Of a DNA stretch of 38,470 nucleotides, positions 19,801 through 38,470 are shown piece by piece (the first letter of the stretch is position 1; every line of letters begins with the position of its first letter). The notes under the pieces were generated by a model. The model saw only the letters and a program-made list of their open reading frames with translations, was not told the DNA's origin and ran no database searches. The DNA is from a virus: IMG/VR virus record IMGVR_UViG_3300007542_000064, positions 1-38,470 of that record. The stretch is one strand, 5' to 3'. The translations under genes and the position numbers were made by a program.

Positions 19801-21811
19801 CGACGACTCTGGGGCGCTGCTTGAAACCGCGGAATATTTGGAGCGCATCAAGAACGGCGCGAAAAACGGGATGTGGGTTGACAGCAGTGTTGACCCGGCG
19901 AAGAAGCAAATCAACTCTATGTCGTCTCGAAGCAATGTTCGGATTCCGGACAGTGGCGTGTCGCTTAAGATCAGCGACGACGAGCGTGGCGACATTCGGC
20001 GTGTGCTTGAGAAAAACAAGAAAATGTGGCAGGGGATCCCAGCCATTTCCGAGTACGACAAGTGGCTTCAGGGTTCGTCCGACAAGATGCCCGCCGATTT
20101 GGCTAGACGAGTTGTCGCTGGCATGAATGATATGGCCAAGCGGAATGAAAACCGTGATTTCCCGAACGAGTTGATGGCAGCGAAAGACTTCATCGATCTT
20201 GCAGCGCTCGCGCCCAATGGCGTCTACGAGTCATCGAACTTCAAGAAGGGCGGCGGTTTGCGTAGTTCCCGCCCAACACCTGCTGGCATGACACCACGAA
20301 ACTTGAGTGACCTTTTGTCATGGGGTCAGACGGAGGGCGACGCACCTATTCGTGACCGATTCTCAGGTCTGTCGGTGGCTGACGTGTCACCGAAGGGTTG
20401 GGCTGTTCTCGATGGTGCCCGAGGCATGCGCTCAGAGCGTGGTTCCGGCGCTCCGACGCCGGAGCGTTCAACGGTCGATGCCGGTAAAGCAACGCAGCGA
20501 GGCCGACCTGTGGGTACTGACATACAGGATACGCGACTCAAGGGCAAGAAGTGGGATGACATCAAACCCGACAACTGGGATGAGTTGACATTAGATCAAC
20601 AGTTTGACGATCTTTACGCACTTTACTCCCCGAAAAAGTCCGGTCTCCGAGAGGCTGATTTCCAGCGTTTGCAAAAGCAGATCTTGGAAGAAATGGACCG
20701 TGAGGAGCGCAAGGAGGCGCGTCGCGCACGCAGACGTCAATTTGCGTCCGAAATTGAGTCTGGCCAGAGGCAGGTTCCTTCTCAGGCTAGACAAGTCGAG
20801 GACGCAGATGCTCGGGCGGCGAGAGAAGAAGCAGAGGCTCAGCAGACTCTCAACGAATTGCGCATGACCCCGGAGGATGCGGCTAAGGCTCGCAGGAAAG
20901 ATATGACCAAACTTGAGCGTCGGATTGCCGGTAACGGTAGCCGAATCTCGGATGCGTTGAATGACGGGGATGCTGGCGACTCGCATCGTGACTTCTGGGA
21001 CGCGGCCAGCGACATTCTTAACGAATCGGATGATTTGACGTTTAGCCAAATCGAGTCACTTTTGGCCACAACGGACGATTATCTGGACGAGTTCCGTGGA
21101 AGCGACATGACGGCAAGCGAGTCGGCGAGCATTCAGGGTGCTGACGGACTGAAGAATCTCCTAGAGGAGATGATGACCAAGTATTCGGGTGATCCGAATA
21201 TGGAGCGCGGAGACTCGACGGCGGCCCTGCGACCCGGCGGTGTTGACGAAAATGATATTCCCAATACCGGCACCGATGCTGCCCGCTTCCTATCGGACGG
21301 CGGTATGCGGTCATTCCGCAACTACAAGCCGAGCGCCACGGTTGAAAATTATGTCGCGGCCAGAAGTTCAAGTGGTATGCGTTCGGCCAAGGCGGGCCGG
21401 ACACAAATCGTTGATGAAGCCACGTTCTTTGCGGATGTTGAGCGTTCACTTAGCAAGGAAATCACCGAGGCTGGCAAAAATAACGATGCTGCGACCATTC
21501 GCGGCCTCAACCTGCTCCAGTCGATTATGCGGCGTCAAGAATCGGGCAAAACAGGTTCCAAGCGGACAAATGTTGGGACGATTACGGTGACCCAAGAGGA
21601 AGTAGACCAGATCTTGGATGCACTTATGGTTGTTCTTGATCGTCAAATGGACATCGATGGTTCACGAATCGACATGTTTGCGAAAATGATCGAAAAATTT
21701 GCCCAAGCGGCGATGTCGACATTTGTTGACAAAACCACGGAGGAAATCACAAGCAGGACACAACAGCGAACCAACTCTCAGGGTCGCACAGTTGACGTTC
21801 CGAATAATTGA
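16886..21811 (+). CDS. Prohead protease fused to a 1450-residue multi-domain tail
   Basis: A 1641-residue protein with an AAGGAG ribosome site. Residues 15-172 are an HK97-type (U35) prohead protease with His64 in VVWGHNW, Ser128 in EWSIGYKT and Glu154 in ELYEVSPVLHGAN. Residues about 182-283 (GGLTAAGRRHFARSEGANLK, then RRKGSFLTRFF and RLALSAAAWGEPVP) match a DUF6321-type phage domain. An acidic Trp/Phe/Asp region follows, then an EF-hand-like loop at 572-590 (FDPNAIDGDEDGLVQEGT). The rest, about 620-1640, is mostly charged coiled coil. [M/L]RS-x-[R/K] motifs occur at 562, 618, 1124, 1180, 1473 and 1497. Normal prohead proteases are 150-250 residues, so this is an exceptional fusion, possibly a self-processing scaffold-protease. 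Confidence 0.88.
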   Translation: MPETEIDDIEFKAAPAGQVSVSAKGIVECFVAGIGNKDSVGDICAPGAFNGSLKRRKPRVVWGHNWNDPIGKVLEIYEVPASDPRLPEKMKRAGIGGLYAKVQFNLNSEKGREAFANVQFFGLEQEWSIGYKTLDAVFDPAKQANVLKEVELYEVSPVLHGANQLTGTISIKGAKQKLKDPKGGLTAAGRRHFARSEGANLKPGVKGPADTPQKMRRKGSFLTRFFTNPSGPMKKPNGKPTRLALSAAAWGEPVPQNASDAAKLAAKGRRLLDRYENAKKKDADWFDDDIDFSDFEAYFAEEFVEMKSDDAWWDFVDFDDFDEKGHMMMRMIPVRKPEPQRDIFAEGEARPLSPEKRNNLEMEIASRVQAPIKLLSATENLVVFVKMKPDGSKRFYRLPYHWDVETSQYMFGKPERVMPRMSWEPMQPTNIVVPQQMPSMPMRVKPSDATSRAYLGPKPEPTMANVFQSWEKDEDDEEKSLEYMTSYTGFETDAHYNTMVECSPEQAFYVKSALDPILEYYDVQAEVTEEGVKFLGGVSDDFVDAVHNASKHFFGGGSKKALRSLRGLTARFDPNAIDGDEDGLVQEGTPFERPATPRVPSKPRMMDAKPTVNEVAEGMRSSRARDTSRLFQMDRKQLEAEIDDAVDEAKSIVEQMKKDFPNSKFDNYWLMSKLDGSYKDLDRRRLANLIVAMDGKGVKDRDADVDEFLREYENSFLSDLGRLQDAEDRIQSLRSHVEDVQEMLYDASDREKDSKNNIDEITKRMQQIQRSLRMSDEELEQLQESDDVVRAADRWMVSNFDPDQIEERMVPSTIAELIDTFNEIEQAKIDGKYAEQDREWAESAIGKLDEVAASLKDPKWGYRDNDPFFDPKRLDEAKRKISALRSEMPSGGRGGMASRRNGGNIQLGIPARDAIRHAETLYEYAERPDVDEVSRRLLNNVADGIDPGDGPSMVERAALQQTIDLLNYGIADDDSGALLETAEYLERIKNGAKNGMWVDSSVDPAKKQINSMSSRSNVRIPDSGVSLKISDDERGDIRRVLEKNKKMWQGIPAISEYDKWLQGSSDKMPADLARRVVAGMNDMAKRNENRDFPNELMAAKDFIDLAALAPNGVYESSNFKKGGGLRSSRPTPAGMTPRNLSDLLSWGQTEGDAPIRDRFSGLSVADVSPKGWAVLDGARGMRSERGSGAPTPERSTVDAGKATQRGRPVGTDIQDTRLKGKKWDDIKPDNWDELTLDQQFDDLYALYSPKKSGLREADFQRLQKQILEEMDREERKEARRARRRQFASEIESGQRQVPSQARQVEDADARAAREEAEAQQTLNELRMTPEDAAKARRKDMTKLERRIAGNGSRISDALNDGDAGDSHRDFWDAASDILNESDDLTFSQIESLLATTDDYLDEFRGSDMTASESASIQGADGLKNLLEEMMTKYSGDPNMERGDSTAALRPGGVDENDIPNTGTDAARFLSDGGMRSFRNYKPSATVENYVAARSSSGMRSAKAGRTQIVDEATFFADVERSLSKEITEAGKNNDAATIRGLNLLQSIMRRQESGKTGSKRTNVGTITVTQEEVDQILDALMVVLDRQMDIDGSRIDMFAKMIEKFAQAAMSTFVDKTTEEITSRTQQRTNSQGRTVDVPNN

Positions 21812-23475: not shown

Positions 23476-26400
23476 ATGGCCCTGACCCGAGCCACCAGAT
23501 ACATAATCTCCGAACGAGTAACTGGTGTACCGCGCCGCAACTACGAACGCCTTGGCTTCAATTTTCGGCTAACGCACGCGATCAGCAGCACCAAAGAAGC
23601 ACTTGATCCGGAGTGGTCCGTAAAAGCACTCAATAGTGCTGCTGGCGAGGAAGAAAGCGACTCTGCTAAGAGGTCATCGGGCGGTTTGAAAGAAACCGTT
23701 CCTGAGATCCGTTTCGCTCCCAATAAGAAACGCGGTCCGGGCGATGTGCTGAAACTGCACGTCACCGCCAAGGACATGTTGCGTGACGGCAACGAACCAA
23801 ATTTCGGTTGGGTTCCCGGTCCACGGAAAGTGACCGAATCTGAGCGGGCAGAAAACATGCGTCAGGCGATGGCGTACCAGAAGAGCCGCCCACAGATCGT
23901 TGTTCATGACTATGACGTTGATCCACGAACGGGTGAGCGAATCGAGTCATCGAAACAGCAAATCCATTTGAAGGCGCTTGGTAGAAGCATCGGTTCGATG
24001 GTTCCGGGTGGGAATCTTGGTTCCCGTGCTGCCCGGGCACTGAAGATCGTCGTAGATGATCTTGGGAAATTCAGGTGTCCTCCGGGCACCCCTGCGGCTA
24101 ACCAGTTCACGGACGAATTCGGCACCAACTGCTTCCAGCCGCCTGTGTCCGCACGCCGCGCCTTGGGCCGCATGCGTGACTGGTTCAACGACCATGTAGC
24201 AATGGGTCGTTACCTCCAGACTTTGGAGGCTGGTTACGACGACCCGGACTTCGCTTCCAACCGTCGCGCGATGGAAGAAGCCGCAAAAATGCGCGCCCCG
24301 CAGGATGTGTTCGATGCGCGTCTTGCCGAACAAAAGGCCGCGATCGACAACCTGACTTCGATGCTGGGAACGTCGACTGAAACGGCGCGAAACGAAGATT
24401 TGTGGAGCATTCTAGAGGCGCTGTCCAATAACGGAATGTGGGACAGCAATTGGACGGAGTTGTTTACGGATGCCTCCGGAAAACGACTTTGGGACCCCAC
24501 CAAATCAATGCAGGAAAACTTGGTTTTGATGGACGCGGCGTTGCGGACAACGTATGCCGACACCCTGCCCGCTGGTTTAACGCCACCAGAACAAGCCGAT
24601 ATGGCCAACATGCTCGTTGAACGGCACATGGAAGTCATGCGTGGCTTCATGACCGGTCTCCTGCACGAGTTCCACGACGACCCCGAAACTTCACGGCTTA
24701 TCAAAAAAGTCGAGTTCCGAGATTTTGACCCAAGCGCGACCGGTCCAGATGGCGGCAAACTCAGTTTGTACTGGGACACCGAAGCCATGTTGGTGCCGAG
24801 TACCGGAAACCCCGCGGACGGGTTTGCTTTGACAATGCAATTTAACCCGACTGCTGTTGTTTTGCGGCCGATGCTTCCAAGTGATCAGAGCGGGCTTCTT
24901 CTTCCGCCCGGCAAGATTCGCATTGCGTCAACAGATGGTGTTGCTCTCGAGGGTCAGCAGTGGCGCGAAATTGAAAGGTTCATGCGAAACGAGATGGATC
25001 TGGAGCGTTGGCGAAACATCTACGCCAATGACCTATCCGCTGCCCGGCACGGGGGCGCCATACAACAGCAGGCAAGGCACATCGCGTACCACGAAATGGG
25101 CCACCTCCAGCAGTATGCATTCATCCAGAAACGCATACTTGACCAATACAACGAAAACGGTTTCATCATGTTGGGCAGCACCATGATCACCGACCCGCCA
25201 AACATGTGGGACAACAAAACATGGGGCCTTGCCGTAGATCAAACCATGCAGCAGGCCCTACCGCAAGAGTATTTGCCTGAAGGATTCCCGCCAGTTGGAA
25301 TTCACGCTTTTGAAGGTTCGATGCTGCACATCTTAAGCGGAAAATACTATCAAGGTCTGGTAGAGGAATTCTGGGGTGCGGATGGCGGGAGTGGTTACGG
25401 CCCGCAAGGAATAGAACGTCAAACCAAACTCAACATTATGTTGATGGAAGGCATGACGGAACTTCGCGCCCTGCAAAAAATGGGTGTCGTTGACAGTGAA
25501 ATCATCGACCAGCAATTGGAGTGGATGAACGGTCGATCCGACTTCCCGCAAGCAACCCCGGGTGGAGGAACCCCCAGCACCCCGCCACGTCGACCTCCAC
25601 GAACCGGCGACACCGGAGTCGACCCACCAGACGGCTACCCGGAGACAAACGGGCCAGATGCCCCTCCGGGAACACCCCCACCGGACGACACGGAACTCAG
25701 CATCATCCCGTCTGGCATCACATGGATTACGGATAAGGAGGCAGATGAAACCTTCGCGGCGCAAGGTCCGTGGGACCTTATGGAGCGTTTCTTCATCGCC
25801 CGGTTCGGCGGACGACCAGACGACAAAACTGGTGGCCATCAGGAGATTCCACGCAAGTCAATCGCGCGCACATGGGACTGGCCCGATGTCTCATATGCGC
25901 AGTTGTCTGCCGCCGATCTTGACACGCGATTCGAAACACTTCGCGACGACCTAGACGCCCTCCTAGACAGACGTGACGCTGGCGAGCAACTGTCAGACGA
26001 CGACCTTGCACGCATGTGGCTTGCCGCCAAGGGAATGGCGCAAATTGCCGACGAAAACAAACGACGCCGCAATGCGAACGAAGCAGAACGTCAGCGTCGT
26101 TCCGACAAATTTGAACGAACGGACGCTGGCCGCTACTTCCGTCCCTCCGGGATGCCGTACAAGTCGAAGCGCACCGAGGATGATCAGACTTACGACGAGG
26201 ATCGCGCTCGCGCAGCAATGAAGGAACTTGAGGATTCGATTCCTCAACGTTTCCCTGACGCCTCTCGCGCATGGACGCGCGATCCGGAAGCCTACGGATC
26301 AGAGCAGGAAATGAATGCTCGGCGCAAGATGACGCGCCGGGAACAGGACGCGATGACGAAAGACATGAAGGAGCGCAACAAGCGTTACGTTCATGGTGGC

Positions 26401-29400
26401 GTCGATTTGGAAGAGGCGATCAAGCGGGCAGCGAAAGTCCGTGAACAGCGCGGTACAACCGCACCTGACGACGCATCCAGTCCGAGTGCTCCTGACGCAA
26501 GCCCAGCCGTGGAGATCGACCAGACGATCATTCCGCTCATGGACTCCATCGACAGGTCGCCACTCAAGGACACCGTTGAGGGCTATCTGGTTGAGGGCAC
26601 GGATCCGGACGGCCGTGGGTTCACGACAATTAAAGTTGTCAGCACCGGCGAGGAGAGCGATCTTGATTACGCGGGGACTGAGCGCACCAAAGTCGTCGTA
26701 CCCAAGGGTATGAGGGGAATTTTCCAGACCGATCCGGAATCTGGAGACAGTGACCGGCTTCTTCTTCCCCCCGGCGAATTCGAACTTGTCGATACTGGTG
26801 AAGGCGGCGTTCGGACCCTCGTGCCGAAAACCCAGATGAGTACCAGCGACTGGGCCAATGCTCGACTTGGTGACTTGGATGGCATGGGTAGGCCGATGTC
26901 GGTCGCCGAGATGAGGGAGCGTGAAAACCTTCGGCGTGTTTTGGCGTCACGGGCAGAGCAGCCTCCTCGCACCCAGACAACGCCGTACAGCCGTGATTCC
27001 GCGACCCGTGTCCGCATGGCTCGGCGACGCAACGAGTACGACCGCGGTTTTGCACAAGAAGGAATTGAGCCCTTCAACCCTGATGCGCGTTCCCGCGACA
27101 CATCCAACGATGTGAATGCCATGGACGAGATGCGAACAACCATCGACGGGATGCTTGATCAGGGCATGGCGATGATTGAGAGGGAGCGCACAGCATCACG
27201 GCTTCCACCAAACTTCTTCGTTGACGCCCTGACCGAAGAAACACGCGAGTTCCTTGAAGGTGCAACCTCGTCTGAAGTGGCAGACCGGCTTGTCTCTGCG
27301 GTTAGCGATTGGAAAGACGGAATTGACCGCAGGCCTGTTCTTCGTTACGGCGACAAAGACATCAGATCAATTTTGGATGGGGAACGCCGGGAACTTCCGA
27401 CATCGGGGTTGAACCGAGAACTTGAAGCCGATCTTGGTTGGCCTGAAGACGCTCCGAGCGGAAGCCGACCCGCATACGGCCACATGACCCACGAAGTTCA
27501 CGACGACATCGTTGACGGCATGTTGCAGCAAGCGGACCGGGCCGGTTTCCCTGCGGCTCGAAGGGCGGAGTTCTACGATCACAGTGGCGAATCGCCACGC
27601 GGACCTCTCGGTTTCCTCGGCGAATACGACGTTGTTCTTCGCGCTGAGGCTTCTTTCCGTACCGGTTTCGGTTTGGGTGATGTTCTCCGTGACCCGGCCC
27701 TTTTGATGCGCCTTAGCGAAAATTCAAGCCTGTCACTCGCCGCAAACATTGCGGTTTCTCGCCGGGGGCCAGAGGCTTCGGCGCAGCGCATCGGCAACTT
27801 CCTTCACGCTGGCATCACCGCAGATTTCCGTGGCGTTCAGATGCGGCGCCAACCAGAGTTGGCTGAGCGTGGCGGGATGATGGTTCGCGCTGCCGGAGAG
27901 TTCCGTTCGGCCGACATGGCGATCGAAGCCGCAATCGCTGGCGGGTTCCAGTTAGACGAAATTGAACGAATCGATGTCCCTGTTGGAACTCTGCCTTGGC
28001 GGGAAAGCGGTCTGCTCGTTCCATCAGATCTTGATCTCGAAGACGGTCCTGCCGCGCAATTCCTCATTAATGCCGGATGGAGCGATGCGGAACGCCAGTT
28101 CTTGATGGAAGGTCTTCTCGAAGGTCGCATTGTTGACGTGAAGGGCGCAACTCTGCTTCGTCAGCATCGTGCTGCCGCAGAACGCAAGCGCGCCTTCGAC
28201 CGTGCCGGTCTGGCTGTGCGTTTCACCAACAGCGATGGAATCGATCTTTTCAGCAGGGCTGACCTGACGGCGGCCACCGATTCCGGCGCGAGGATCGGCC
28301 GTGTCCGCAATGTTGAAGAAGCATTGTCAATTCGGTTGCAGGACGAAATCATCGCCCGTCAAGCAACCTTGCAGCCGATCGTTCAGGAAGGGATGCGAAG
28401 CCTTCGTGATCGGGTAACCCGCGTCATTGGAGACAGGGCGGCAGATGCCATCACCGAGAGAATTGGTGAAGCCGGACGCCGCATGAGCACTTCAACACCA
28501 CGGCCCACTGGTCGTGCCGCGCTGGTACAAAGGTTGTTGACGTCACAACGCGCGACCGCACTTCTGCGTCGTGCTGGCCTTGAGGACGACAACATTGAAA
28601 TGGTTCAAATGGTTGGCGAAATGGCCGTTGCCTTCTCCGGTGGCGGACCCGCTGGAGTCGGTTTGGTGATTGCACGTCGGGCAGGACGCGAGGGTATTGA
28701 TTACGCGGTTCGCAAGGCGGTTGAGCAGGGATGGCTTGATCAGGATCAGGCAAGAAAGATCATTTCGGCCGCCGACCGGGTGGCACCTGAGGGTCTACCA
28801 GATGCCGTCAACGATGCGTTGAGTGATGCGGCTGACAGATTTGTTGATAGCGACGCGGCAGCGAGGGCAAGGGAAATCGCCGACGCAGTATCTACTCGCG
28901 TGAGTGAGTTTGGTTTGCTGGAGCGTCTGGACGAAGCGCGTGAACGGATCGGTGAGAGGATGTCTGGGCGTCCAGATACCCCTGACCCGACTCCTCAGCC
29001 TGCGACTTGGAATCCGTTTGATGCGCCGTCCGGAATGCGGTCGCGCCGCCAATCCCTGTCGCGTGACATTCCGGCACTTGACGGTGCCAACGACAACGAG
29101 TTACGTGAAATGGCACGCACTCTGGTGAGAGACCCGTCGTCGGTGGATCAGCCGTATTGGCAAGAGATTGTCGATATCGCTGGTGACCTTAGGCTGCCCG
29201 GAGGTTGGACGGGTGAGGATGGTCGCACTATCCGTGAAGTGTTCACTCAAGAAGGATGGCGTGGCGAACAATATTTCTCCGGTTACGAGTTTGAGATTGA
29301 TGATGCGATCCGCGTTATTGAAGAGTCTGATCTAAGCCCTGACGATAAGCAGAAGGCTGTCGAAAATCTTAAGATCACACAGGAATTGGCAAAGGTGGTC

Positions 29401-30810
29401 AGTGTCGCCATGACGACAAGCAAACCGCCACCCAGACGTTCGGACCCATTCGGTGATGATGGCCCTGAAGAGCCGTGGGTTCCGCCAACCGCGGACGAAG
29501 TGAACTCTCAACTTGATGAAATCATTTCCAGAATGCCAGACAGTTTCCTTGACAATTTGTCCGATACCTTGAAGGCAAATCGTGAAGCAAGAGCCAAGAA
29601 GGAACGTGAAAGCAAGGTTCGTGGAGAAGTCGAATCAGAACTAGGTCGTCTTGACTCTCGTATCGGATATTGGCGTTTGAAAGACGAAGATGAAATCCTT
29701 GACAGAACAGCACCCGTCGGTGAAGCCACGGTAGCGCGAAGGAGCGACCCGAACTTTGAGGCACCAGACCCCGATCCTGAAGTTGTCCGGTCACTGGACG
29801 ATCTTGTAAAACTGAGTCGCGATGGTCTTGTTCTTACGGATGATTTGACAAAACCTGAGCATCGTGCGGAACTTCGCTCGTTACTTCTCGAAAATCCCAA
29901 GTTGCAAGAGGCACTGGAACAGATTCGCGAGAGGATCGCTACCCGCGGTTTCTACGAAGAATCCGAAAATGATCGGTCAACGAAGTCTGGCTTGGATTAC
30001 GCCGGTCGTGAACTTGTTGATGCATTGATCCATGCTCGTGGTCTTGATGCGGCGCCGACAAAAATCACGTCGGACGAGATCGATTATCTTCGTTACGCTG
30101 GCGGTCTGACGCCGGTTTCGCGTGGCGGCAACACGGAGATGGCTCGCCGCCATGTTGATGCGGACGGCTACCCGATTGGTGAAGGTGTTGACGGTGCAGG
30201 CGTGTATTTCGCTGTTCAGGGCGGCACAGAGCGGATGGGGCTAAACGAGCACTTTGACGCCAGCGTGTACGCCGGAGAAAATGGTTCTGTGATTCAGGGC
30301 GTTGTCGCGCCATCGGCAAGATTTACGAGTCCGCTTACGATGTCGCGTCAACGGGAAACGTATCGCCTTGAAGTCGAGGTGGGTCAACCGCAAACGTATT
30401 CGGAAGGCGCAAACCCGCTGCTCGATTTGCGTAGGGAACTTGTGGCGGCTGGTGATACCGAGATGGTCGAAGCGTTGGATTTGATGGTCGGAACTGCCTC
30501 GTCGGATGGTCATGGCGAGTTCCAGAACGGCTATGCGGTGATGGCTTTGTTGCAGGGTTTTGACGGTATGGCGAGTTATGGTACCGGCAGTCAAGACAAC
30601 CGGGTTATTCTGTATAACCGATCAGCGGTCATGGTCGGAGACTCATTGCTGAGTGGCGCAGACTACGCTGAGTTGCGACCGTGGGAAAAACTTGAGGAAC
30701 GCGCAAAGGCACTGGCCGTAAAACACAATCTTCCATTTGGTCTCGAAGGCGAAGCGCGAACGCAATGGATCTTGGATGAGACACAGCGCAGACTGGAAGC
30801 ACTCGCATGA
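23476..30810 (+). CDS. Giant head-associated protein: zincin motif and C-terminal ADP-ribosyltransferase-like domain
   Basis: A 2444-residue protein with GAGAGGG before the ATG. Residues 200-219 hold the Cys module RCPPGTPAANQFTDEFGTNC. HEMGH at 539-543 with a likely third ligand in EGMTE (658-662) marks a gluzincin-like metallopeptidase domain. A Pro/Thr-rich linker follows (about 690-735). The middle is helical and Arg-rich, with GMRSLR at 1639 and GMRSRR at 1853. The C-terminus resembles phage ADP-ribosyltransferases: VSRGG at 2214-2218, GAGVYFA at 2240-2246, ALLQGFDGM, and NRSAVMV at 2381-2387. Catalytic residues beyond Arg2216 cannot be fixed by eye. Size and position suggest a virion-internal protein delivered or processed at infection. 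It overlaps the next gene by 4 bases. Confidence 0.82.
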   Translation: MALTRATRYIISERVTGVPRRNYERLGFNFRLTHAISSTKEALDPEWSVKALNSAAGEEESDSAKRSSGGLKETVPEIRFAPNKKRGPGDVLKLHVTAKDMLRDGNEPNFGWVPGPRKVTESERAENMRQAMAYQKSRPQIVVHDYDVDPRTGERIESSKQQIHLKALGRSIGSMVPGGNLGSRAARALKIVVDDLGKFRCPPGTPAANQFTDEFGTNCFQPPVSARRALGRMRDWFNDHVAMGRYLQTLEAGYDDPDFASNRRAMEEAAKMRAPQDVFDARLAEQKAAIDNLTSMLGTSTETARNEDLWSILEALSNNGMWDSNWTELFTDASGKRLWDPTKSMQENLVLMDAALRTTYADTLPAGLTPPEQADMANMLVERHMEVMRGFMTGLLHEFHDDPETSRLIKKVEFRDFDPSATGPDGGKLSLYWDTEAMLVPSTGNPADGFALTMQFNPTAVVLRPMLPSDQSGLLLPPGKIRIASTDGVALEGQQWREIERFMRNEMDLERWRNIYANDLSAARHGGAIQQQARHIAYHEMGHLQQYAFIQKRILDQYNENGFIMLGSTMITDPPNMWDNKTWGLAVDQTMQQALPQEYLPEGFPPVGIHAFEGSMLHILSGKYYQGLVEEFWGADGGSGYGPQGIERQTKLNIMLMEGMTELRALQKMGVVDSEIIDQQLEWMNGRSDFPQATPGGGTPSTPPRRPPRTGDTGVDPPDGYPETNGPDAPPGTPPPDDTELSIIPSGITWITDKEADETFAAQGPWDLMERFFIARFGGRPDDKTGGHQEIPRKSIARTWDWPDVSYAQLSAADLDTRFETLRDDLDALLDRRDAGEQLSDDDLARMWLAAKGMAQIADENKRRRNANEAERQRRSDKFERTDAGRYFRPSGMPYKSKRTEDDQTYDEDRARAAMKELEDSIPQRFPDASRAWTRDPEAYGSEQEMNARRKMTRREQDAMTKDMKERNKRYVHGGVDLEEAIKRAAKVREQRGTTAPDDASSPSAPDASPAVEIDQTIIPLMDSIDRSPLKDTVEGYLVEGTDPDGRGFTTIKVVSTGEESDLDYAGTERTKVVVPKGMRGIFQTDPESGDSDRLLLPPGEFELVDTGEGGVRTLVPKTQMSTSDWANARLGDLDGMGRPMSVAEMRERENLRRVLASRAEQPPRTQTTPYSRDSATRVRMARRRNEYDRGFAQEGIEPFNPDARSRDTSNDVNAMDEMRTTIDGMLDQGMAMIERERTASRLPPNFFVDALTEETREFLEGATSSEVADRLVSAVSDWKDGIDRRPVLRYGDKDIRSILDGERRELPTSGLNRELEADLGWPEDAPSGSRPAYGHMTHEVHDDIVDGMLQQADRAGFPAARRAEFYDHSGESPRGPLGFLGEYDVVLRAEASFRTGFGLGDVLRDPALLMRLSENSSLSLAANIAVSRRGPEASAQRIGNFLHAGITADFRGVQMRRQPELAERGGMMVRAAGEFRSADMAIEAAIAGGFQLDEIERIDVPVGTLPWRESGLLVPSDLDLEDGPAAQFLINAGWSDAERQFLMEGLLEGRIVDVKGATLLRQHRAAAERKRAFDRAGLAVRFTNSDGIDLFSRADLTAATDSGARIGRVRNVEEALSIRLQDEIIARQATLQPIVQEGMRSLRDRVTRVIGDRAADAITERIGEAGRRMSTSTPRPTGRAALVQRLLTSQRATALLRRAGLEDDNIEMVQMVGEMAVAFSGGGPAGVGLVIARRAGREGIDYAVRKAVEQGWLDQDQARKIISAADRVAPEGLPDAVNDALSDAADRFVDSDAAARAREIADAVSTRVSEFGLLERLDEARERIGERMSGRPDTPDPTPQPATWNPFDAPSGMRSRRQSLSRDIPALDGANDNELREMARTLVRDPSSVDQPYWQEIVDIAGDLRLPGGWTGEDGRTIREVFTQEGWRGEQYFSGYEFEIDDAIRVIEESDLSPDDKQKAVENLKITQELAKVVSVAMTTSKPPPRRSDPFGDDGPEEPWVPPTADEVNSQLDEIISRMPDSFLDNLSDTLKANREARAKKERESKVRGEVESELGRLDSRIGYWRLKDEDEILDRTAPVGEATVARRSDPNFEAPDPDPEVVRSLDDLVKLSRDGLVLTDDLTKPEHRAELRSLLLENPKLQEALEQIRERIATRGFYEESENDRSTKSGLDYAGRELVDALIHARGLDAAPTKITSDEIDYLRYAGGLTPVSRGGNTEMARRHVDADGYPIGEGVDGAGVYFAVQGGTERMGLNEHFDASVYAGENGSVIQGVVAPSARFTSPLTMSRQRETYRLEVEVGQPQTYSEGANPLLDLRRELVAAGDTEMVEALDLMVGTASSDGHGEFQNGYAVMALLQGFDGMASYGTGSQDNRVILYNRSAVMVGDSLLSGADYAELRPWEKLEERAKALAVKHNLPFGLEGEARTQWILDETQRRLEALA

Positions 30811-31013
30811 TTGACACCGACAGCAAAAACTGGGGCTACACGGACGACATCAAAAAGTTCCTTGCCACCGAAACTATGCAGATTGTGAAGCGCAAGGATC
30901 CCGGCGCAATCCCCTACTACGTCACCTTGTTTCAATCGGGCGCACAGTCAGACGCCATTCTGGAACAGCATCGCGAATGGTTTGAAGCAGCCATGAAGGA
31001 ATACGGATCATGA
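30807..31013 (+). CDS. Small 68-residue protein, unknown
   Basis: The ATG overlaps the giant gene's stop (ATGA), and its own stop overlaps the next start the same way, so the three are translationally coupled. The sequence (MIDTDSKNWGYTDDIKKFLA... AILEQHREWFEAAMKEYGS) looks like a small alpha/beta or helical domain with no recognised motif. Being wedged between two zincin-containing proteins, it may be a partner or inhibitor of one of them; this is inference from position only. Confidence 0.65.
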   Translation: MIDTDSKNWGYTDDIKKFLATETMQIVKRKDPGAIPYYVTLFQSGAQSDAILEQHREWFEAAMKEYGS

Positions 31014-33481
31014 GAGCCATACCCGTTGGACGCACCGACTCCGGAATGCTGTACTACGTCATTGAAGGCGAGCAAAACGGCGCGTTGATCAACAAAAAGA
31101 AACAGGTTTTTGAGTTCGATTTCTTGTCCTTCTTGGCGAAACGTGACGTCGATCGGATCATGTCGTCCGACTTCCATGATTTCCTTTGGGGTGGGGTTGA
31201 TCTTCCGGACAATCGTTGGCGCAACATCGTTCAGTACGGGGTGCAAAAAGTTCCTGAACAAATGCTTGCTGGTGTTGACGTCCTCACCGAGTTCCCAAAC
31301 AAAAAGAAAGAACGTTCTGGAGCAATGCGCGAAAAAGACGATCGCGCCATGGAGTTCAAGTCTCTGATCGCGGCAGAACAGCATGAGAAAGCGTTAGCCA
31401 GAGCGCTTGCCCGTGGCGCTAGACGCGCGACCGGCGGAACCCGGGGTTTTATCCGCGGCGCAGTTTTTAATCCTGACGCAGAAGACGCCGATGGAGACGG
31501 CTGGGTTCAAGAGGGTACGCAGTTTGCTCGTCGGGCAACAGGCCAAGCAAAACGGCGAGCGAGACGGGTTGTTCGCGCGCAGGAACGACTGGAAAACAGC
31601 GAAACCGTAGGTATGCGTTCGTTTCGCTCCGGCATGGGCGCTAGCCAGATGCGGTGGGTCAGTCGATCAAAAGAACACTACACCAAACGACATGGGGATG
31701 TCCTAAAACAAGTCCAAGACAAATACAACAACGGCAACCCCATAAAAAAGTACGGCGACATTCGCAAGGCGCTAATACGTGCCCATCCGGGTTTCGCCAA
31801 CGGCGACTCGAAAATTGATTTCCTCGCAGGGGCAGATGACGATTCTGACGCCCAACCCGGACACATCGCCCACGTTGTTGGCTTCTTGTATGGGTTAATG
31901 GCGAACCCAGAACTGGAAAATGTCAACTTTGTTATAGAACAAAACACGAACCCGCGAATTGACGGTTCGGCCGCATGGTTGGGCCGACATCGGGTCAACA
32001 TAGATGCGAGTGGCACCATCATCATGGCTGCTGGCCCAGACAAAAAACCGACCATTGCCCTCAAATACAACACGGAGACCCACTACCACACGACCGAAAA
32101 TCTTCGCGAACTTGGAAATTTTCAGTTAGAAGCACACAAGGCGTTCGTGACCCTGCTTCGCGATGTTCCACCGAGAAGTTTGCCTGATCCGACGACAGGC
32201 AACATGGTGCCAAATCCAAATCTGACTGATGAGGAACGTGCTGCATGGGAATTCGCCGCTGAGGTCGCCTCTTCCATGGTCACTATTCACGAAATGGGTC
32301 ACGCCGCGCACAAATGGGTGTCAATGCGTGATGCTATGGCCGCAGATGGGCTAGGTCCTACAGACACGCTTTCGGTCGACTTGGTGCGTCAACGGTTAAG
32401 AAATTACGTTGCCAGAATGTCCAAGGAAGACAAACGTGATTCGGTTCGCTCCCTCGCATTAACCGAAGAGCGCGACCTTGTGGGATTGGGAATCCTGCTC
32501 GTCGGCGGAATATCCGACCCGGATAAGCGACGTAAGGCTATGTTTGGCGACCTAAAGTCACTTGATGGTTCTGGCAAAACTATTACAGTCAATCAAGAAT
32601 TGGCTGACTGGCTGAACGCGATTGGTAAAGACATGTTTCCCAATCCGACGAAAAGTCGCTGGAAGGATGGCGACCCACTTCCTTTCGTGATCGCTTCAGG
32701 AATTTTTGATCTCGCTCCGGCAGGAAGACGACCCCTTTTCGCTGATCGAACCATGCCGTACTACATGTTCAAGCCTTGGAATTTACGCACGCTCGCTACA
32801 AGAGTCGAGTTCGTAAACGGGCAAAAGGTGCCTGTTCCAAACTTGGAACTGCTAATCGAAAACGGCCTACCGCGTACTCCAATGTCTCAGGGGTTATCTC
32901 CCGAGACTGGACAAATTATCGCAGAGGCTTTGATTCGTGGGGCGCGAAACGCGGTTTCAGCCCACTCGAATACCATCGTAATTGATCCCGATTCGGTGGT
33001 CACCACGAATGTTCCAATACCGAACGCACCCAACATGAATGACGTCATTGATGGCAAGGTTGGGGAATCTGTGATGGACGAAGTCCTCGAATTTTTCCTC
33101 AACGAGTCAATGGATCGGATTATTGGTTCACAAAATCCACGCGCCATCAGGACTGGTCTAGAGCACCTGTTTATGGGGACGAAGTATTTTGATGATTTGA
33201 CAGCAGAGGAAAAGCGTATTGCGAGAGAAATCGCGATGCTTGGCTCTGGTGGTGAGTGGGCGGCGTACATGGCGGCCTTCACACAACATTTCGACCTTGA
33301 CCACATGTTCCGGTTCTGGGATTTCGAACTCATTGCTGAACTTATTGCCGCCAACTCTTATGGCAACGAGATCAGGCTTTTCGATGGCGAAAGCGTGCGA
33401 CAGTTGACAGAAAAAGAAGCCGCAGTTCTGGCTAAGATTGCGTCTTGGATCTTCCCAGAAGATGATTTCCGACTTAAGTGA
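31010..33481 (+). CDS. Head-associated protein with a second HEMGH zincin
   Basis: An 823-residue protein. Residues 1-110 are an unrecognised domain. An EF-hand-like loop (FNPDAEDADGDGWVQEGT) lies at 153-170, followed by a basic stretch and GMRSFR at 201-206. HEMGH at 427-431 in SMVTIHEMGHAAHKWVSM is a zincin active site, with a third metal ligand probably in ELIAELIAANSYG (Glu773 or Glu777). Sequence around the two phage HEMGH motifs differs, so this is not a recent duplicate of the giant protein's domain. Possible roles are processing of head proteins or action in the host cell. Length and layout match no family I can name. Confidence 0.78.
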   Translation: MRAIPVGRTDSGMLYYVIEGEQNGALINKKKQVFEFDFLSFLAKRDVDRIMSSDFHDFLWGGVDLPDNRWRNIVQYGVQKVPEQMLAGVDVLTEFPNKKKERSGAMREKDDRAMEFKSLIAAEQHEKALARALARGARRATGGTRGFIRGAVFNPDAEDADGDGWVQEGTQFARRATGQAKRRARRVVRAQERLENSETVGMRSFRSGMGASQMRWVSRSKEHYTKRHGDVLKQVQDKYNNGNPIKKYGDIRKALIRAHPGFANGDSKIDFLAGADDDSDAQPGHIAHVVGFLYGLMANPELENVNFVIEQNTNPRIDGSAAWLGRHRVNIDASGTIIMAAGPDKKPTIALKYNTETHYHTTENLRELGNFQLEAHKAFVTLLRDVPPRSLPDPTTGNMVPNPNLTDEERAAWEFAAEVASSMVTIHEMGHAAHKWVSMRDAMAADGLGPTDTLSVDLVRQRLRNYVARMSKEDKRDSVRSLALTEERDLVGLGILLVGGISDPDKRRKAMFGDLKSLDGSGKTITVNQELADWLNAIGKDMFPNPTKSRWKDGDPLPFVIASGIFDLAPAGRRPLFADRTMPYYMFKPWNLRTLATRVEFVNGQKVPVPNLELLIENGLPRTPMSQGLSPETGQIIAEALIRGARNAVSAHSNTIVIDPDSVVTTNVPIPNAPNMNDVIDGKVGESVMDEVLEFFLNESMDRIIGSQNPRAIRTGLEHLFMGTKYFDDLTAEEKRIAREIAMLGSGGEWAAYMAAFTQHFDLDHMFRFWDFELIAELIAANSYGNEIRLFDGESVRQLTEKEAAVLAKIASWIFPEDDFRLK

Positions 33482-33487
33482 GGAATA

Positions 33488-33856
33488 GTGGACTCTCGAC
33501 CTGAATGGCAAGACAAGTGGATTAAAAAACTTGAAAATGTTTTCGGCATGCCGTTGACCGAGGTTGATAAAACGCTGTCCCCAGATCAAATTATCGGGAT
33601 ACTGCGAAAGTTTGAAACAGGTAAGGATCCTCACGAAAAAGATCGAATGTCATATGCAGAAGAAGTGGTCAGTGTGATCGGCGACACAACGACAGCCCGC
33701 AGGCAGATTTATAGAGATCCAGTTGACGAGACCATCGGCATCTCGTACCGAATCGGACTCTACGACTATCCGCCCGACAAGCGTGGCCACCACCTCACCC
33801 GAGACGAAATCATGAAAGACTACGAAAATTACGTGGCTAGGAGAGACAAGCAGTAG
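33488..33856 (+). CDS. Small 122-residue protein, unknown
   Basis: Starts at a GTG at 33488 with GAGG six bases upstream, seven bases after the previous stop. A helical N-terminus (EWQDKWIKKLENVFGM... SPDQIIGILRKFETG) is followed by a mixed region (EVVSVIGDTTTARRQIYRDP, IGISYRIGLYDYPPDKRGHH) and a basic helical end. No motif or family is recognised. It ends the coupled zincin block; a 47-base gap follows. Confidence 0.6.
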   Translation: MDSRPEWQDKWIKKLENVFGMPLTEVDKTLSPDQIIGILRKFETGKDPHEKDRMSYAEEVVSVIGDTTTARRQIYRDPVDETIGISYRIGLYDYPPDKRGHHLTRDEIMKDYENYVARRDKQ

Positions 33857-33903: not shown

Positions 33904-34554
33904 ATGGACACTTTCGAATACAAGGCAATTCAGGACGTCCTGTTGGACCTGCCGCAAGAGCGGATCACGGGCGACATCTTGCGTGGACGGGGACCACGAC
34001 GAGGCAACCTTGAGCGGCTTTTGCGCTATTGGCGCCCAATTATGAAGAAGCCGGGCGGATTCCGTAGATGTCGAGTGATCCTGAAAAACCATCCCGAGTT
34101 GTACCCCTTGAGCCGAATCTGCGCTTGGCTGCATCATGAGACCACCGGTCTGTGGCCAAACGAGGGTTGCCATCATCCGGGAATGAAAAACTGCAAGGGA
34201 AAACTGAAGAAACTCAAGAACTGGAGTGACGCAGACTTTTCTCGCCGAATGAAGAAGCGCTTCAAGAAAAACAAGAAGTCTCTTGACGGATATTGGATGG
34301 ACGAAGACGATGTGTTCTTCGGCGACTTCCCTGAACTTAAAAGCCTTGGGTACGAGGATGAAGTCAATCCCGTCGTGACCGAGATGGACTACAAGCATGC
34401 GTTCAGCGTGCTCGCCGATTTCATGGCAATGGAGCCCACGTTCACAAACTACCTGCGTGACTACAACAACTGGGAACTTGAAGTCGAGATGTCCGACGGA
34501 ACGCTCCTCCTCAATGAATTTACCCGAGACGACGACTGTAGTGAGTGTGCGTGA
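33904..34554 (+). CDS. Conserved-looking basic/acidic phage protein with Cys/His cluster
   Basis: A 216-residue protein from the ATG at 33904. The N-terminal half is basic, with LRGRGPRRGNLERLLRYWRP, Cys56, Cys73, and a Cys/His cluster (ICAWLHHETTGLWPNEGCHH, then Cys97) that could bind zinc. Lys/Arg-rich helices follow (MKKRFKKNKKS). The C-terminal third is acidic and ends DDDCSECA. It looks like a conserved head-region protein of large actinophages, but I know of no function. A GGGAAG before the start may be the ribosome site at short spacing; TAAACT just upstream may be a weak -10. Confidence 0.65.
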   Translation: MDTFEYKAIQDVLLDLPQERITGDILRGRGPRRGNLERLLRYWRPIMKKPGGFRRCRVILKNHPELYPLSRICAWLHHETTGLWPNEGCHHPGMKNCKGKLKKLKNWSDADFSRRMKKRFKKNKKSLDGYWMDEDDVFFGDFPELKSLGYEDEVNPVVTEMDYKHAFSVLADFMAMEPTFTNYLRDYNNWELEVEMSDGTLLLNEFTRDDDCSECA

Positions 34555-36515
34555 TGGTCGAAACCTACATTTACGAGAAAGACACCGGATGTGAGGCATG
34601 CCCAACAATCCGTGTTAAGCGAACCATACTTGTCGATCTTTCACGTAAATCAAACATCAGTTTTGTTCGCGGACATCGAGCCAACCGAGAAGAAATCGTC
34701 GAATACAAGGCTCTGGCACACAGAAGCGGAGTCATCCGCCGCTACAACGTCAAACGAGTAGGTGCTTTCGGATCCTCAAGTCGCATCGGTCAAGCGGCGC
34801 AAGCCATCGGGTCAATCATCACACCCGGAAACGTTTCTCCTTACAGGAGCCCCATCCGTTCAGGTATCGCCCGAGCCCTGACGCCCGGAGGCGGACGAGG
34901 AAGGCGGCCCGGACGCTCCAACCGCGCTGCCCGCTGCCCTGAGGGATACCAGTACGGTGGACGGTTCACCGACAACCAGTTGTCGACCTGTGGTGCAAAA
35001 CTTTTCGACCTTCCCGGACCGTTGGGGCGCGCAATTTCAGCCATCCAGCGTGCGTTCACCAGAACAAACATCACCGTCAACGAACCGCAAGGTCGCGCCA
35101 TTCGCGGCACCGCCGCAGGGAACGTCCTCGAATCACGGAAACCTCAGATCCCGCGAGTTCAACCGACAACCCTGCGATCCGACAGAGATAAGCAAACCTC
35201 CGAAATCATCAAGGCCATGGGTTCGACCAACGAACCAATCTCGCGCCTCATCCGCCGTGACGGCTTCGTCCTAGAACCAGTCGTCTCACCAAAAGTGCTT
35301 CGCACCATCCCCGACAACCGAGACATGGAAGACGCCACCTACGTGATGAGGTTGACCAGTGTTGACAACCTTGGCGGCGATGAACTCGGCCTGCTTTCCA
35401 ACACCGGTGTAACTAACGTCACATATGCGCTTAGCAACGGTTCGTACGTTGAGATCAAGAAAGTGCGGCCGCTTACCGTTGGAGAACGACGCAAACTTGG
35501 GCGCACGGTCAATAAGGCGATTGAAACCGATAACAGCAAGGATCCGGCTGCACGGTTGAAGTATCTGGCCGACGAGACCGGTGACGGGATGGAGTATCGA
35601 GAGAAACTTCCCAAGGGGAAGAATCTCCAGCAGATGCTTAAGGGTGGCAGGCCGCGCAAGGCGGTTGAGAAAGCGCCCGCTTCGGCTCCAGATGAGCGGC
35701 GCAACGTCATGACGGTTGATGCTGCGGCTGCGAAGATTCGCGCCGGAGAACCGCTTTCCAGCATTCCCCCGTCTGTTCTGCAACAGGCTCTCACCAAGGC
35801 CAACATTTTCCGTCGTCGCCGCAATGCGTTTGAAAGCACTGGCGGCAAGGGCTACACCCAGAGGGCGTCCAAGAATCCGAACGACCACTTGAACGTGGCG
35901 TTGGCCTCCGAAATCCAGCGATATATGGGTCTCGACGCCCCAGATGTCGGCATTTTTGGTGCAGGAGACAACAAGAAAGCACTTGTCGAGTTGCCAGAAT
36001 CCGTTATCGATGGTTCCACCGTTGACACCGGTTCGTCATTGTCGGATCTGAGCACCAATGACGTCGCAAAAATGCTGGTGTCTGACCTTGTTTCCGACAT
36101 CACTCAACGTCCAAGAAACAGTGTTGCCATCGTCAAAAAGGGCGACTCCGTCAAGCCAGTTCCTCTGGCCGTCGACAGCGAACTTACAGATTTGTCTGAA
36201 ATCAAGATTCGTGAACGCACAAAAGCGCAGATTAGAAAGTTCGGATCGGTCTCCGGCGAAGGCCTGTACAGCAAGTATTATAAAGAGTTGAAGGAGGAGC
36301 AGCGGCGTCTCATGCAGAAGCAAATCGCAGACCTTCTTCTGCGCGCCCGTCAATTCAATTTCACAAAATACCGGGATCGCCTTTACCGTGACGGCGAATT
36401 GTCGCAATCAGAAAAAACCCATCTAAACATTGTGGCTAAGATTATCGAAAACCGAATTGAAGTTCTTGGAAGCCAGCGCGAACAATTGATTAAGGCGCTC
36501 GGAGGTAACAAGTGA
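34554..36515 (+). CDS. Head-associated protein with Cys module and degenerate kinase-like domain
   Basis: A 653-residue protein whose ATG at 34554 overlaps the upstream stop (TGATG). Residues 1-120 are basic with CEACP near the N-terminus. The Cys module RCPEGYQYGGRFTDNQLSTC is at 127-146, with the same Cys spacing as in the giant protein. TLRSDR follows at about 205. Residues about 386-560 resemble PI3K/HipA-like kinase folds carried by phage head proteins: ALASEIQRYMGLDAPDVGIF, MLVSDLVSDI, a catalytic-loop-like QRPRNSVAIV (Asn522) and AVDSEL (Asp541). The catalytic DR pair is missing, so it is probably inactive or adapted. The C-terminus is long helix. Confidence 0.72.
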   Translation: MVETYIYEKDTGCEACPTIRVKRTILVDLSRKSNISFVRGHRANREEIVEYKALAHRSGVIRRYNVKRVGAFGSSSRIGQAAQAIGSIITPGNVSPYRSPIRSGIARALTPGGGRGRRPGRSNRAARCPEGYQYGGRFTDNQLSTCGAKLFDLPGPLGRAISAIQRAFTRTNITVNEPQGRAIRGTAAGNVLESRKPQIPRVQPTTLRSDRDKQTSEIIKAMGSTNEPISRLIRRDGFVLEPVVSPKVLRTIPDNRDMEDATYVMRLTSVDNLGGDELGLLSNTGVTNVTYALSNGSYVEIKKVRPLTVGERRKLGRTVNKAIETDNSKDPAARLKYLADETGDGMEYREKLPKGKNLQQMLKGGRPRKAVEKAPASAPDERRNVMTVDAAAAKIRAGEPLSSIPPSVLQQALTKANIFRRRRNAFESTGGKGYTQRASKNPNDHLNVALASEIQRYMGLDAPDVGIFGAGDNKKALVELPESVIDGSTVDTGSSLSDLSTNDVAKMLVSDLVSDITQRPRNSVAIVKKGDSVKPVPLAVDSELTDLSEIKIRERTKAQIRKFGSVSGEGLYSKYYKELKEEQRRLMQKQIADLLLRARQFNFTKYRDRLYRDGELSQSEKTHLNIVAKIIENRIEVLGSQREQLIKALGGNK

Positions 36516-38470
36516 AGCAGTATGCACTCGTAAAAGATGGCGTGACCGGCAAGACGTTCGGCATTGTCGTCAGGGACGGCATCACCGAAACCTGCTACGG
36601 AATCGGCGCCAAAGGTGAGGCGTGGGCCTCCGCCTACAACGAGATGCAAACCAAATCGCTTGAAGACGAATTGCCTTACGGCGTCGAAATTGGCGACTTC
36701 CGCGGAATGGCTCACTTTGAGCAGGTTTTGATCGAAGAAATGGCCGACGGAAACAAGGACGTTCGACTCCTTGATCGCGACCGTGTCCACATGGTGAAAT
36801 CCGAATACGGATATGGGACTTCACTTACCCCATCCGTTTTCGGACGACCACTCAACTCGTTCTCGCCGACCGGAGACATTGAGACGGTTGTTGAGTACAA
36901 AGTTCGATACTTCTTGAACTCCTCGGCCAAATCGTCAGTCATGGCAAAAGTTCGCCTTGAGCGCCTCGGAATTGACGCCGCCTCAATGAAGTTCAAGTCG
37001 CGCACAAACAACGAGTTCTTGGAAGAAGATCTCGAATACATGGCCCGCGGCAAGGGAAACTTGCGCCGTTCCGTGGTCAGCGTGTTCCGTGCAAAACAGG
37101 CAACGCGAGCCAATCACGACGGCTACGACCCCTCGCCGTTCGAGCCGGAAGTTAAAGCACTTGGCCCTCGTCTTGGTGGTGGACTTCGAGCCGCACCGAG
37201 GGGCATGTCGTTTGTCGACATCACTGGGCGAGTTGATGGTGACAACGACGGCATCGTGTTTGAGGGTGTTCCCGGCATGGAGCGCCCGATCATCCCGCGT
37301 TTCATGGTTCCCAAAAACATGGCGCGCCGGATTTCCGCACTTGTTGACGGGGACTCGATGGAAATCGAGAAGTCTCGCCGTGCCGGTAATTCGTCCGCCC
37401 GCATCGACGATGATCGTCTACAGGAATTGTTGGGTGACAATGCCCGGTTCGTCACCCGTCTGAACGGCGAAGGTCTTCGTTCTCGCCGCGGTCAGCGTCG
37501 TACGCAAGACCCGGATGCGGCTCAGGCCCGTACTCGCGATCGCAGGGCGCAAGAGTTCTTCGAGATGGACCGCGATCAACGTCGCGAATACCTTGCTCTG
37601 TCGCAAGAGGACCGACGTCGAAGCCTTGATGCTGCTGCCCGTGAACGGAGGGCTCAAGCGTTCTTCGCCATGAATCGCGATGAGCGTCGCGCGTTCTTTG
37701 CGTTGTCACCGGAAGAGCGTGATGCCGAAATTGATCGTCGTGTTGCTGAGGGCAGGCAGGCTCGACGCGATGCACGCCGTACCGACACTCCAGATGCACC
37801 AGACGATGAGGGCATGCGTTCACAGCGTCAATCTCAAAGGACTGACTGGACGGGCGATGGAAAGCCCGTCTATTTGCGGAATGATCCGCAGAGCGAGTTG
37901 GTCGCAAAGCGTCGCGATGAGTTTGGGCGCCTCGAAGAAATCTACAGGGACACCGAGACTGGAAAATTCTTTGGACGGCAAACGGGATTTTCTGATTACG
38001 ACACTGAAGGGGTTTCCATCCGTGATGGCGACAAACGGCAGTTCGACACAGCGGAAGAAGTTCAACGAGTCGCAGAAGCCGACAGTCTTTCGCAGTTCAA
38101 TGCGAGTAGTGGCATGCGTTCTCGCCGTACGGTTATTCCACGGCGTCAACCGGACGCACGTCTCGACGCAGACATTGACGAAGAGGTGGCTCGACGGCGC
38201 GAAGAGTTCCGTCAGTTCCAGATTGCTCGTGGCCTGAAGCCGGATGGTACAGGTGAGTCATCGCGTACCGCCAAGCGTCCTCCGATCTCCCAAGATCCGC
38301 ACCGGATTCGTCAGCGCGATATTGAAAATGCTCGGTTCCTTGACGATCCAGATAACTACGATTTCGCGCTTTCTGATTATCTTGCGACCAGCCCGATTTA
38401 TGGGATGCGTAGCCAGCGCGCTCAGGGCATGCGGATCATCAAGAATTGGGATGGGCCGGACCCGACAACC
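36512..38470 (+). CDS. Head-associated protein with EF-hand-like loop and Arg/Phe repeats (partial)
   Basis: The GTG at 36512 has GGAGG six bases upstream and overlaps the previous stop (GTGA). All 653 codons to the window edge are open and no stop is reached. Residues 1-230 are an unrecognised mixed domain (VKQYALVKDGVTGKTFGIVV...). The loop VDGDNDGIVFEG lies near 241-252, followed by 'MERP'. GLRSRR is at 321, then a 35-residue tandem repeat (345-414), then GMRSQR (434), GMRSRR (534) and GMRSQR (631). The rest is charged, Arg-rich and probably disordered or helical. It could continue into further domains beyond the window, like its larger neighbours. Confidence 0.75.
   Translation, partial: MKQYALVKDGVTGKTFGIVVRDGITETCYGIGAKGEAWASAYNEMQTKSLEDELPYGVEIGDFRGMAHFEQVLIEEMADGNKDVRLLDRDRVHMVKSEYGYGTSLTPSVFGRPLNSFSPTGDIETVVEYKVRYFLNSSAKSSVMAKVRLERLGIDAASMKFKSRTNNEFLEEDLEYMARGKGNLRRSVVSVFRAKQATRANHDGYDPSPFEPEVKALGPRLGGGLRAAPRGMSFVDITGRVDGDNDGIVFEGVPGMERPIIPRFMVPKNMARRISALVDGDSMEIEKSRRAGNSSARIDDDRLQELLGDNARFVTRLNGEGLRSRRGQRRTQDPDAAQARTRDRRAQEFFEMDRDQRREYLALSQEDRRRSLDAAARERRAQAFFAMNRDERRAFFALSPEERDAEIDRRVAEGRQARRDARRTDTPDAPDDEGMRSQRQSQRTDWTGDGKPVYLRNDPQSELVAKRRDEFGRLEEIYRDTETGKFFGRQTGFSDYDTEGVSIRDGDKRQFDTAEEVQRVAEADSLSQFNASSGMRSRRTVIPRRQPDARLDADIDEEVARRREEFRQFQIARGLKPDGTGESSRTAKRPPISQDPHRIRQRDIENARFLDDPDNYDFALSDYLATSPIYGMRSQRAQGMRIIKNWDGPDPTT
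37544..37753 (+). repeat. 35-residue tandem repeat (RRAQ.FF.M.RD.RR) in coding sequence
   Basis: Two adjacent 105-base units encode RRAQEFFEMDRDQRREYLAL... and RRAQAFFAMNRDERRAFFAL.... They share about half their residues, including the sub-pattern M-x-R-D-x-R-R-x-(F/Y)-x-A-L-S-x-E-(E/D)-R. The units are diverged at DNA level, so this is an old protein repeat rather than a slippage tract. Confidence 0.75.

Follow-up and report, generated by a model that had tools for sequence, protein, structure and literature searches.

Two predicted lethal-factor-like zincin domains in head-operon proteins of an uncultured tailed phage

The IMG/VR virus record IMGVR_UViG_3300007542_000064, a linear sequence of 38,470 bases from an uncultured tailed phage, was analysed over its whole length (the window), with two proteins of its head operon being of major concern, namely P0001 (2444 amino acids) and P0002 (823 amino acids), each of which possesses one HEMGH motif within a predicted zincin domain (A and B, respectively). 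Both domains probably represent new lethal-factor-like metallopeptidase families, residing in polyvalent proteins that would themselves be packaged into the capsid. The underlying observation is real, deeply conserved and structurally supported, and it represents a known phage strategy in a new version rather than an oddity. An initial annotation of this DNA had placed HEMGH at residues 539-543 of the larger and 427-431 of the smaller protein, which is exactly where both motifs were located, and had pointed to the co-occurrence of two zincin-like domains with a serine prohead protease in one head module; the latter was recovered as Peptidase_S78 (PF04586; 43.1 bits against a cut-off of 21) at residues 27-169 of a 1641-residue open reading frame (ORF) of the same operon.

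A portal search of environmental viral contigs returned 48 loci, and relatives were taken from the downstream DNA of 13 portal-search records, with further ones being obtained by alignment searches. A P0001 orthologue possessing HExxH at residues 487-727 was found in all 13 records and likewise in the further relatives. Within the domain A alignment (23 sequences, relatives being 14-56% identical to the window protein) H539, E540 and H543 were invariant (23/23), E658 and E662 were kept in 22 of the 22 sequences with residues at these positions and Y624 in 20 of 23; the columns average 22% identity, yet HExxH and ExxxE are retained. For domain B, a ten-sequence alignment revealed H427, E428 and H431 in 10/10 and E773, E777 and Y753 in 9/9 sequences. 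Acidic motifs had been annotated about 115 and 345 residues after the first and second HEMGH; ELIAE lies 346 residues downstream in P0002, and EGMTE is likewise present in P0001, its spacing however being 119 residues. A repeated chance match of HEMGH in helix-rich structural proteins might be considered, the motif being short and both proteins long, yet by composition only 0.026 HExxH motifs are expected in P0001 and 0.025 in P0002, and the invariance within 23 and 10 aligned sequences refutes chance occurrence, leaving this explanation with a negligible probability. The domain A profile was found in 30 of 35 records, and the five records without it (G001, G008, G011, G019, G020) are short (16-27 kb), their loci ending before or around the gene; since no related record extending to the locus is without zincin A, it looks to be a core component of these phages.

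Structural evidence was obtained from AlphaFold2 models of domain A and of full-length P0002, both built from the family alignments without templates. The domain A model reached a predicted local distance difference test (pLDDT) of 75.4 and a predicted template modelling score (pTM) of 0.79, with a pLDDT of about 93 in the HExxH block and of 76-90 in the Glu helix, and the P0002 model a pLDDT of 74.2 and a pTM of 0.64; in both, the Glu motifs sit in helices (408-430 in the A model, 769-783 in the B model). When compared by VIA-align, both domains found the catalytic domain of anthrax lethal factor as top match (A: Z 7.8, root-mean-square deviation 4.5, 183 residues aligned; B: Z 8.5, root-mean-square deviation 3.9, 177 residues aligned), followed mostly by other HExxH enzymes, i.e., PPEP-3, M1 aminopeptidases, ACE/ACE2 and neprilysin. 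The first 14 rows of the ranking for A, and the first 12 for B, are all HExxH metalloenzymes, two of the A rows aligning another lethal factor domain. The predicted convergence of both histidines and the third acid on a metal site was looked at by way of conserved residues, secondary structure and fold match. Profile-profile comparison of A with B aligned 28 columns around HExxH only (E 5e-4, probability 31%), and a recent duplication was rejected as the alignment is confined to the HExxH helix. By their profiles, A and B are two families of one superfamily, and the annotation of two distinct zincin-like domains, not a simple duplication, is borne out by conservation, by the A-B profile comparison and by two separate fold predictions.

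The frame in which these domains are understood is that of phage polyvalent proteins, whose MPTases were unified with lethal-factor-like zincins by Iyer et al. (2017; PMC5512222), the roles proposed there being processing, either within the head or following injection, or an attack on the host. P0001 and P0002 are very large proteins encoded beside the portal and terminase packaging genes, as expected of this class. Several unrelated domains within one polypeptide are found in a giant of the related record G017 (L136, 2740 amino acids), which shows four, i.e., zeta toxin, pentapeptide repeats, ArdC-N and MPTase-PolyVal (E 5.7e-37); P0001 of the window shows only zincin A and an unproven C-terminal module. 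MPTase-PolyVal was identified in giant ORFs of 5 out of 34 related records. Because related giants carry MPTase-PolyVal, ArdC-N and zeta toxin, the domain content places the window's phage family among the carriers of polyvalent proteins. The co-occurrence of two zincins with a prohead protease, annotated as unusual, is real, but its rarity is less well supported, as no domain is more frequent than zincins in the polyvalent proteins of phages, some of which carry more than one copy (PMC5512222), and as the giants of G017 (L080, L136) contain eight or more HExxH motifs, one of these being a canonical MPTase-PolyVal behind ArdC-N. Elsewhere in the family, the prohead-protease fusion of L047 (12188-19474) contains sigma-70 region 4 and the P0001 orthologue of L076 (76-7908) an RNase_T domain; these are possible injected transcription and nuclease cargo.

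Searches for named relatives gave little. The MPTase-PolyVal model (PF18818) matched neither A nor B, and profile comparison of A or B with MPTase-PolyVal did not support a relation, the second profile having been built from three sequences only. Pfam and PDB-sequence profile searches revealed no likeness of A or B to M34 (lethal factor and Pro-Pro endopeptidase, PPEP), hence the domains were not filed as M34, and a search of the window for M48 peptidases found no match. Neither P0001, P0002 nor two linker tags described below were matched by tblastn among 50,697 phage records, peptide-pattern searches from single proteins confirmed no relative, and bacterial and archaeal genomes searched by domain A and by portal contained none. 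The nearest named terminases and portals are those of Gordonia and Brevibacterium phages, a likeness which gives a weak hint to the host.

Zincin B differs from zincin A in its distribution, as it is present in part of the family only and appears to be an accessory domain. Residues 1-135 of P0002 form an anchor that is homologous to a separate protein of 113-174 amino acids that occupies this place of the operon in L075, L078, L079, L080, L115, L116 and L117/L129, and L094 carries both the stand-alone and the fused form. Since this anchor stands alone in relatives, zincin B was either added at the end of a small protein of the head operon or lost from it. In more distant relatives the zincin B motif reads HExxxH (HEVGGH or HEVMGH in L093 and its relative L123, HEFSGH in L133 and L134), and E-x-x-A-E is still present in L093 (4001-7420), L133 (79-3429) and L134; in the alignment, H431 is paired with the second His of L093 by means of a one-residue insertion. 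The zincin B orthologue of G025 (C1:20948-21265) possesses an in-frame TAA before the Glu helix, which may be a sequencing error or a natural truncation, the close relative G026 being intact. The accessory and variable nature of zincin B fits an alternative by which both zincins serve as host-targeting effectors cutting host proteins (e.g., defence or regulatory ones), the giants being processed by the S78 protease only. Giants of the same kind in relatives carry zeta toxin, ArdC-N and pentapeptide repeats, and effector zincins are known from polymorphic toxins, a role also allowed for in PMC5512222; however, all family phages with a record extending to the gene have zincin A with its motifs retained, which agrees better with a core function than with an effector in an arms race, and no host target is known, so that this alternative is considered possible but unlikely.

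The more unusual part of the finding is not the zincins but the motif and tags that recur around them. The first tag, FDPxAxDxDxDGxVQEGTxFxRPA-like, occurs once each in the 1641-residue protease fusion, in P0002 and in the last protein of the window (37235-37288), and the second, CPxGxxxxxxFTDxxxxxC, once each in P0001 and in the 656-residue protein (34935-34991). DxDxDGxVQEGT is also found near the C-terminus of a phrog_7924-like protein of 135 amino acids, encoded on the minus strand beside the tail sheath (3249-3653), and the second tag is kept in nearly all relatives. L136 takes the place of the last giant after the 656-residue-type protein and resembles it over residues 214-313, around the tag; the likeness of the last giant to more distant relatives stops about 15-40 residues past the tag start, a pattern that would result if the anchor were fixed and the cargo exchangeable.

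Besides these tags, GMRS (mostly GMRSxR) is found ten times in the window, spread over four head proteins; 0.11 copies would be expected, and 2000 shuffles never yielded more than three. Four of these reside in the protease fusion (18737-21391), two in P0001 (28390-29049), one in P0002 (31610-31627) and three in the last giant (37811-38419). As the copies use different codons for G, R and S, the motif appears to be selected as protein and not as a DNA repeat. Throughout the counted genomes, some of which are closely related, G[ML]RS occurs 93 times in 105,154 residues of ORFs of at least 500 amino acids and once in 46,155 residues of smaller ORFs, and other lineages possess versions reading GLRS, SMRS, SG[LM][RS]S, FSSGR or LSSG. 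When 84 GMRS-type sites were compared with positions drawn at random from the proteins carrying them, their flanks scored as more prone to disorder (p ~1e-10, although sites from related phages are not independent). At the join of anchor and zincin B in P0002, an Arg-rich stretch and the DxDxDG tag are found together with GMRSFR at residue 201, where the block pLDDT is 25-36. We infer that the GMRSxR-like motifs are candidate processing sites.

The mechanism considered most likely assumes gluzincin-type, lethal-factor-like domains (MPTase), in which the general-base Glu and two of the zinc ligands would come from the HExxH helix, and the third ligand would be a Glu of the later E-x-x-x-E helix. 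The giants share their operon with the portal and the S78 prohead protease, and in relatives also with the major capsid protein; they would be brought into the prohead by their conserved N-terminal structural domains and linker tags. Cleavage of the giants would follow at short motifs within the linkers, which read GMRSxR in the present phage, with either the S78 protease or a zincin serving as cutter, and the cargo pieces thus formed would be ejected with the DNA. Zincin A would most likely be a core enzyme whose substrates are the giants of the phage itself, processed while still in the head or shortly after injection, and zincin B, grafted behind a possibly cuttable linker, is more likely to be an accessory processing enzyme or a host-targeting effector; nothing points to cell-wall cutting by A or B. 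A tentative extension of this scheme, to which a rather low probability is assigned, is a general head cargo code, whereby at least four head-operon proteins, the prohead protease included, combine a conserved tag with exchangeable effector cargo and are all cut at one lineage-specific motif (GMRSxR, GLRS, SMRS, FSSGR) by a cargo-borne lethal-factor-like zincin.

Several results weigh against this interpretation of A and B. Neither domain is recognised by any sequence model of Pfam, PHROGs, NCBIfam or the PDB, and P0001 and P0002 as wholes gave no meaningful family match; Foldseek alone, when run for A against the PDB, gave no significant match (best E 0.08, an unrelated protein); and the lethal factor match arises from the VIA realignment, a Z of 7-8 being near the level that the tool calls common. 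Of the comparison with zincin folds proposed in the initial annotation, the match of both models to lethal factor and then other zincins stood, the significance in Foldseek alone did not, and because of the latter the uniform top rows from two separate models support the zincin fold to a moderate degree. Furthermore, the HExxH domain of ChlB, an alpha-ketoglutarate HExxH oxygenase, matches A at Z 4.1, non-peptidases being among the HExxH folds as well. The zincin fold might accordingly lack a peptidase role, being that of another HExxH metalloenzyme such as this oxygenase or of a structural domain like C1 of the phage N4 virion RNA polymerase, which is packaged uncleaved despite its MPTase domain (PMC5512222) and whose C1 bears HExxH (PMC12633501). 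This is improbable, as lethal factor and PPEP match A better than the oxygenase does and as neither the general-base Glu nor the two ExxxE glutamates vary among sequences that have otherwise diverged widely, a retention hardly expected of a relic. With regard to cleavage, some relatives, such as L075, possess no obvious version of the motif, and GMRS is not found in the major capsid protein, so that it is not evidently the S78 protease site; this absence mildly favours a zincin as the GMRSxR cutter. It also enters a narrower form of the preferred explanation, by which the zincins recognise GMRSxR and the giants are self-processing polyproteins, the S78 protease cutting only major capsid protein and scaffold. 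Members of the lethal factor and PPEP group typically cut at specific sequences, and GMRS is found just before zincin B and in the giants, both being in line with self-processing; the S78 protease, however, is equally present across the family and L075 possesses zincin A without an obvious motif, which renders this narrower form rather unlikely.

The locus itself (Table 1) consists of minus-strand genes that include a tail sheath (phrog_23, E 7e-43), for which reason the phage is probably contractile-tailed, and of a plus-strand head operon with the order portal, 1641-residue S78 fusion, acidic protein, P0001, P0002, two small proteins, 656-residue protein and the start of a giant; in the operons of relatives the major capsid protein lies further downstream. 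The TIGR01543 match of the S78 fusion (51.2 bits) is below its cut-off of 59. The C-terminal module of P0001 is matched in L070, L072 and L099 and not in L069 or L071; its ADP-ribosyltransferase-like look was noted by eye from SRGG and GVYF and is unproven, and Pfam, PHROGs, NCBIfam and PDB sequence searches with this module were empty.

Table 1. Coordinates of the head-operon features within the window
Feature	Position	Strand	Evidence
Large terminase subunit	13232..14542	-	PF17289, PF03237
HK97-type portal protein, 662 aa	14800..16788	+	PF04860 E 4.7e-48, TIGR01537 115 bits
1641-aa fusion: S78 prohead protease (~16964-17392), DUF6321, DxDxDG tag, long variable C-terminal part with four GMRS	16886..21811	+	PF04586, TIGR01543, phrog_80, PF19846
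DxDxDG linker tag FDPNAIDGDEDGLVQEGTPFERPA in protease fusion	18599..18670	+	
503-aa acidic protein, between protease fusion and P0001	21941..23452	+	no family match above cut-off
P0001, 2444-aa head giant bearing zincin domain A	23476..30810	+	ORF and homologues
Linker tag CPPGTPAANQFTDEFGTNC, P0001 residues 201-219, N-terminal of zincin A	24076..24132	+	
Zincin domain A, residues 303-686, part matching lethal factor and PPEP structures	24382..25533	+	23-sequence alignment, AlphaFold2 model, VIA-align
HEMGH of domain A, H539 E540 H543	25090..25104	+	invariant in 23/23
EGMTE of domain A, residues 658-662, predicted third zinc ligand helix	25447..25461	+	E658/E662 in 22/22
GMRSLR, candidate processing site, P0001 residue 1639	28390..28407	+	
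GMRSRR, candidate processing site, P0001 residue 1853	29032..29049	+	
C-terminal module of P0001, residues 2176-2444, ADP-ribosyltransferase-like by eye	30001..30807	+	no profile match
P0002, 823-aa head protein bearing zincin domain B	31010..33481	+	ORF and homologues
N-terminal anchor domain of P0002, residues 1-135	31010..31414	+	stands alone in relatives
DxDxDG linker tag FNPDAEDADGDGWVQEGTQFARR in P0002	31466..31534	+	
GMRSFR, P0002 residue 201, low-confidence linker between anchor and zincin B	31610..31627	+	
Zincin domain B, residues 246-817, ~340 residues between HExxH and Glu motifs	31745..33460	+	10-sequence alignment, AlphaFold2 model, VIA-align
HEMGH of domain B, H427 E428 H431	32288..32302	+	invariant in 10/10
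ELIAE of domain B, residues 773-777, predicted third zinc ligand helix	33326..33340	+	E773/E777 in 9/9
122-aa protein directly after zincin B	33488..33856	+	
216-aa conserved protein	33904..34554	+	
656-aa head-operon protein, CxFTDxxxxxC tag at residues 131-149	34545..36515	+	
Further head giant, start only (runs off the window; 1281-1851 aa in close relatives)	36512..38470	+	conserved N-terminal domain, DxDxDG tag at residue 242, three GMRS

Taken as two new zincin families that sequence profiles do not see, with predicted structures and invariant putative catalytic residues, one of them being universal in an environmental phage family, A and B render a question on polyvalent proteins testable, namely whether zincins process the giants or attack the host, and the precise cut positions predicted from the shared GMRSxR-like motif can be checked by virion proteomics. 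Compared with the polyvalent proteins carrying MPTases (PMC5512222), the giants are likewise encoded beside portal and terminase genes, the domains are lethal-factor-like zincins whose HExxH and Glu helices are separated by inserts that vary, and effector domains co-occur in related phages, with more than one MPTase in some; in contrast, A and B are unrecognised by PF18818 or any other model, and cargo is here appended to several head-operon proteins, the S78 protease included, behind two recurring tags. Anthrax lethal factor and PPEP (MEROPS M34, gluzincins) share HExxH and the Glu helix and supply the top structural match of both models, but sequence similarity is not detectable, B possesses a long insertion, and a phage head operon is set against a secreted toxin or enzyme. 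C1 of the phage N4 virion RNA polymerase (PMC12633501) offers a HExxH zincin-like domain within a giant ejected virion protein, whereas in the window no RNA polymerase domain was found and the zincins reside on two separate proteins. Finally, in SPN3US several head proteins cut by the prohead protease gp245 share a short motif (AXE; PMC10052503), as do the head proteins described here, whose candidate motif is GMRSxR-like and lineage-specific and whose cleavage is putative.
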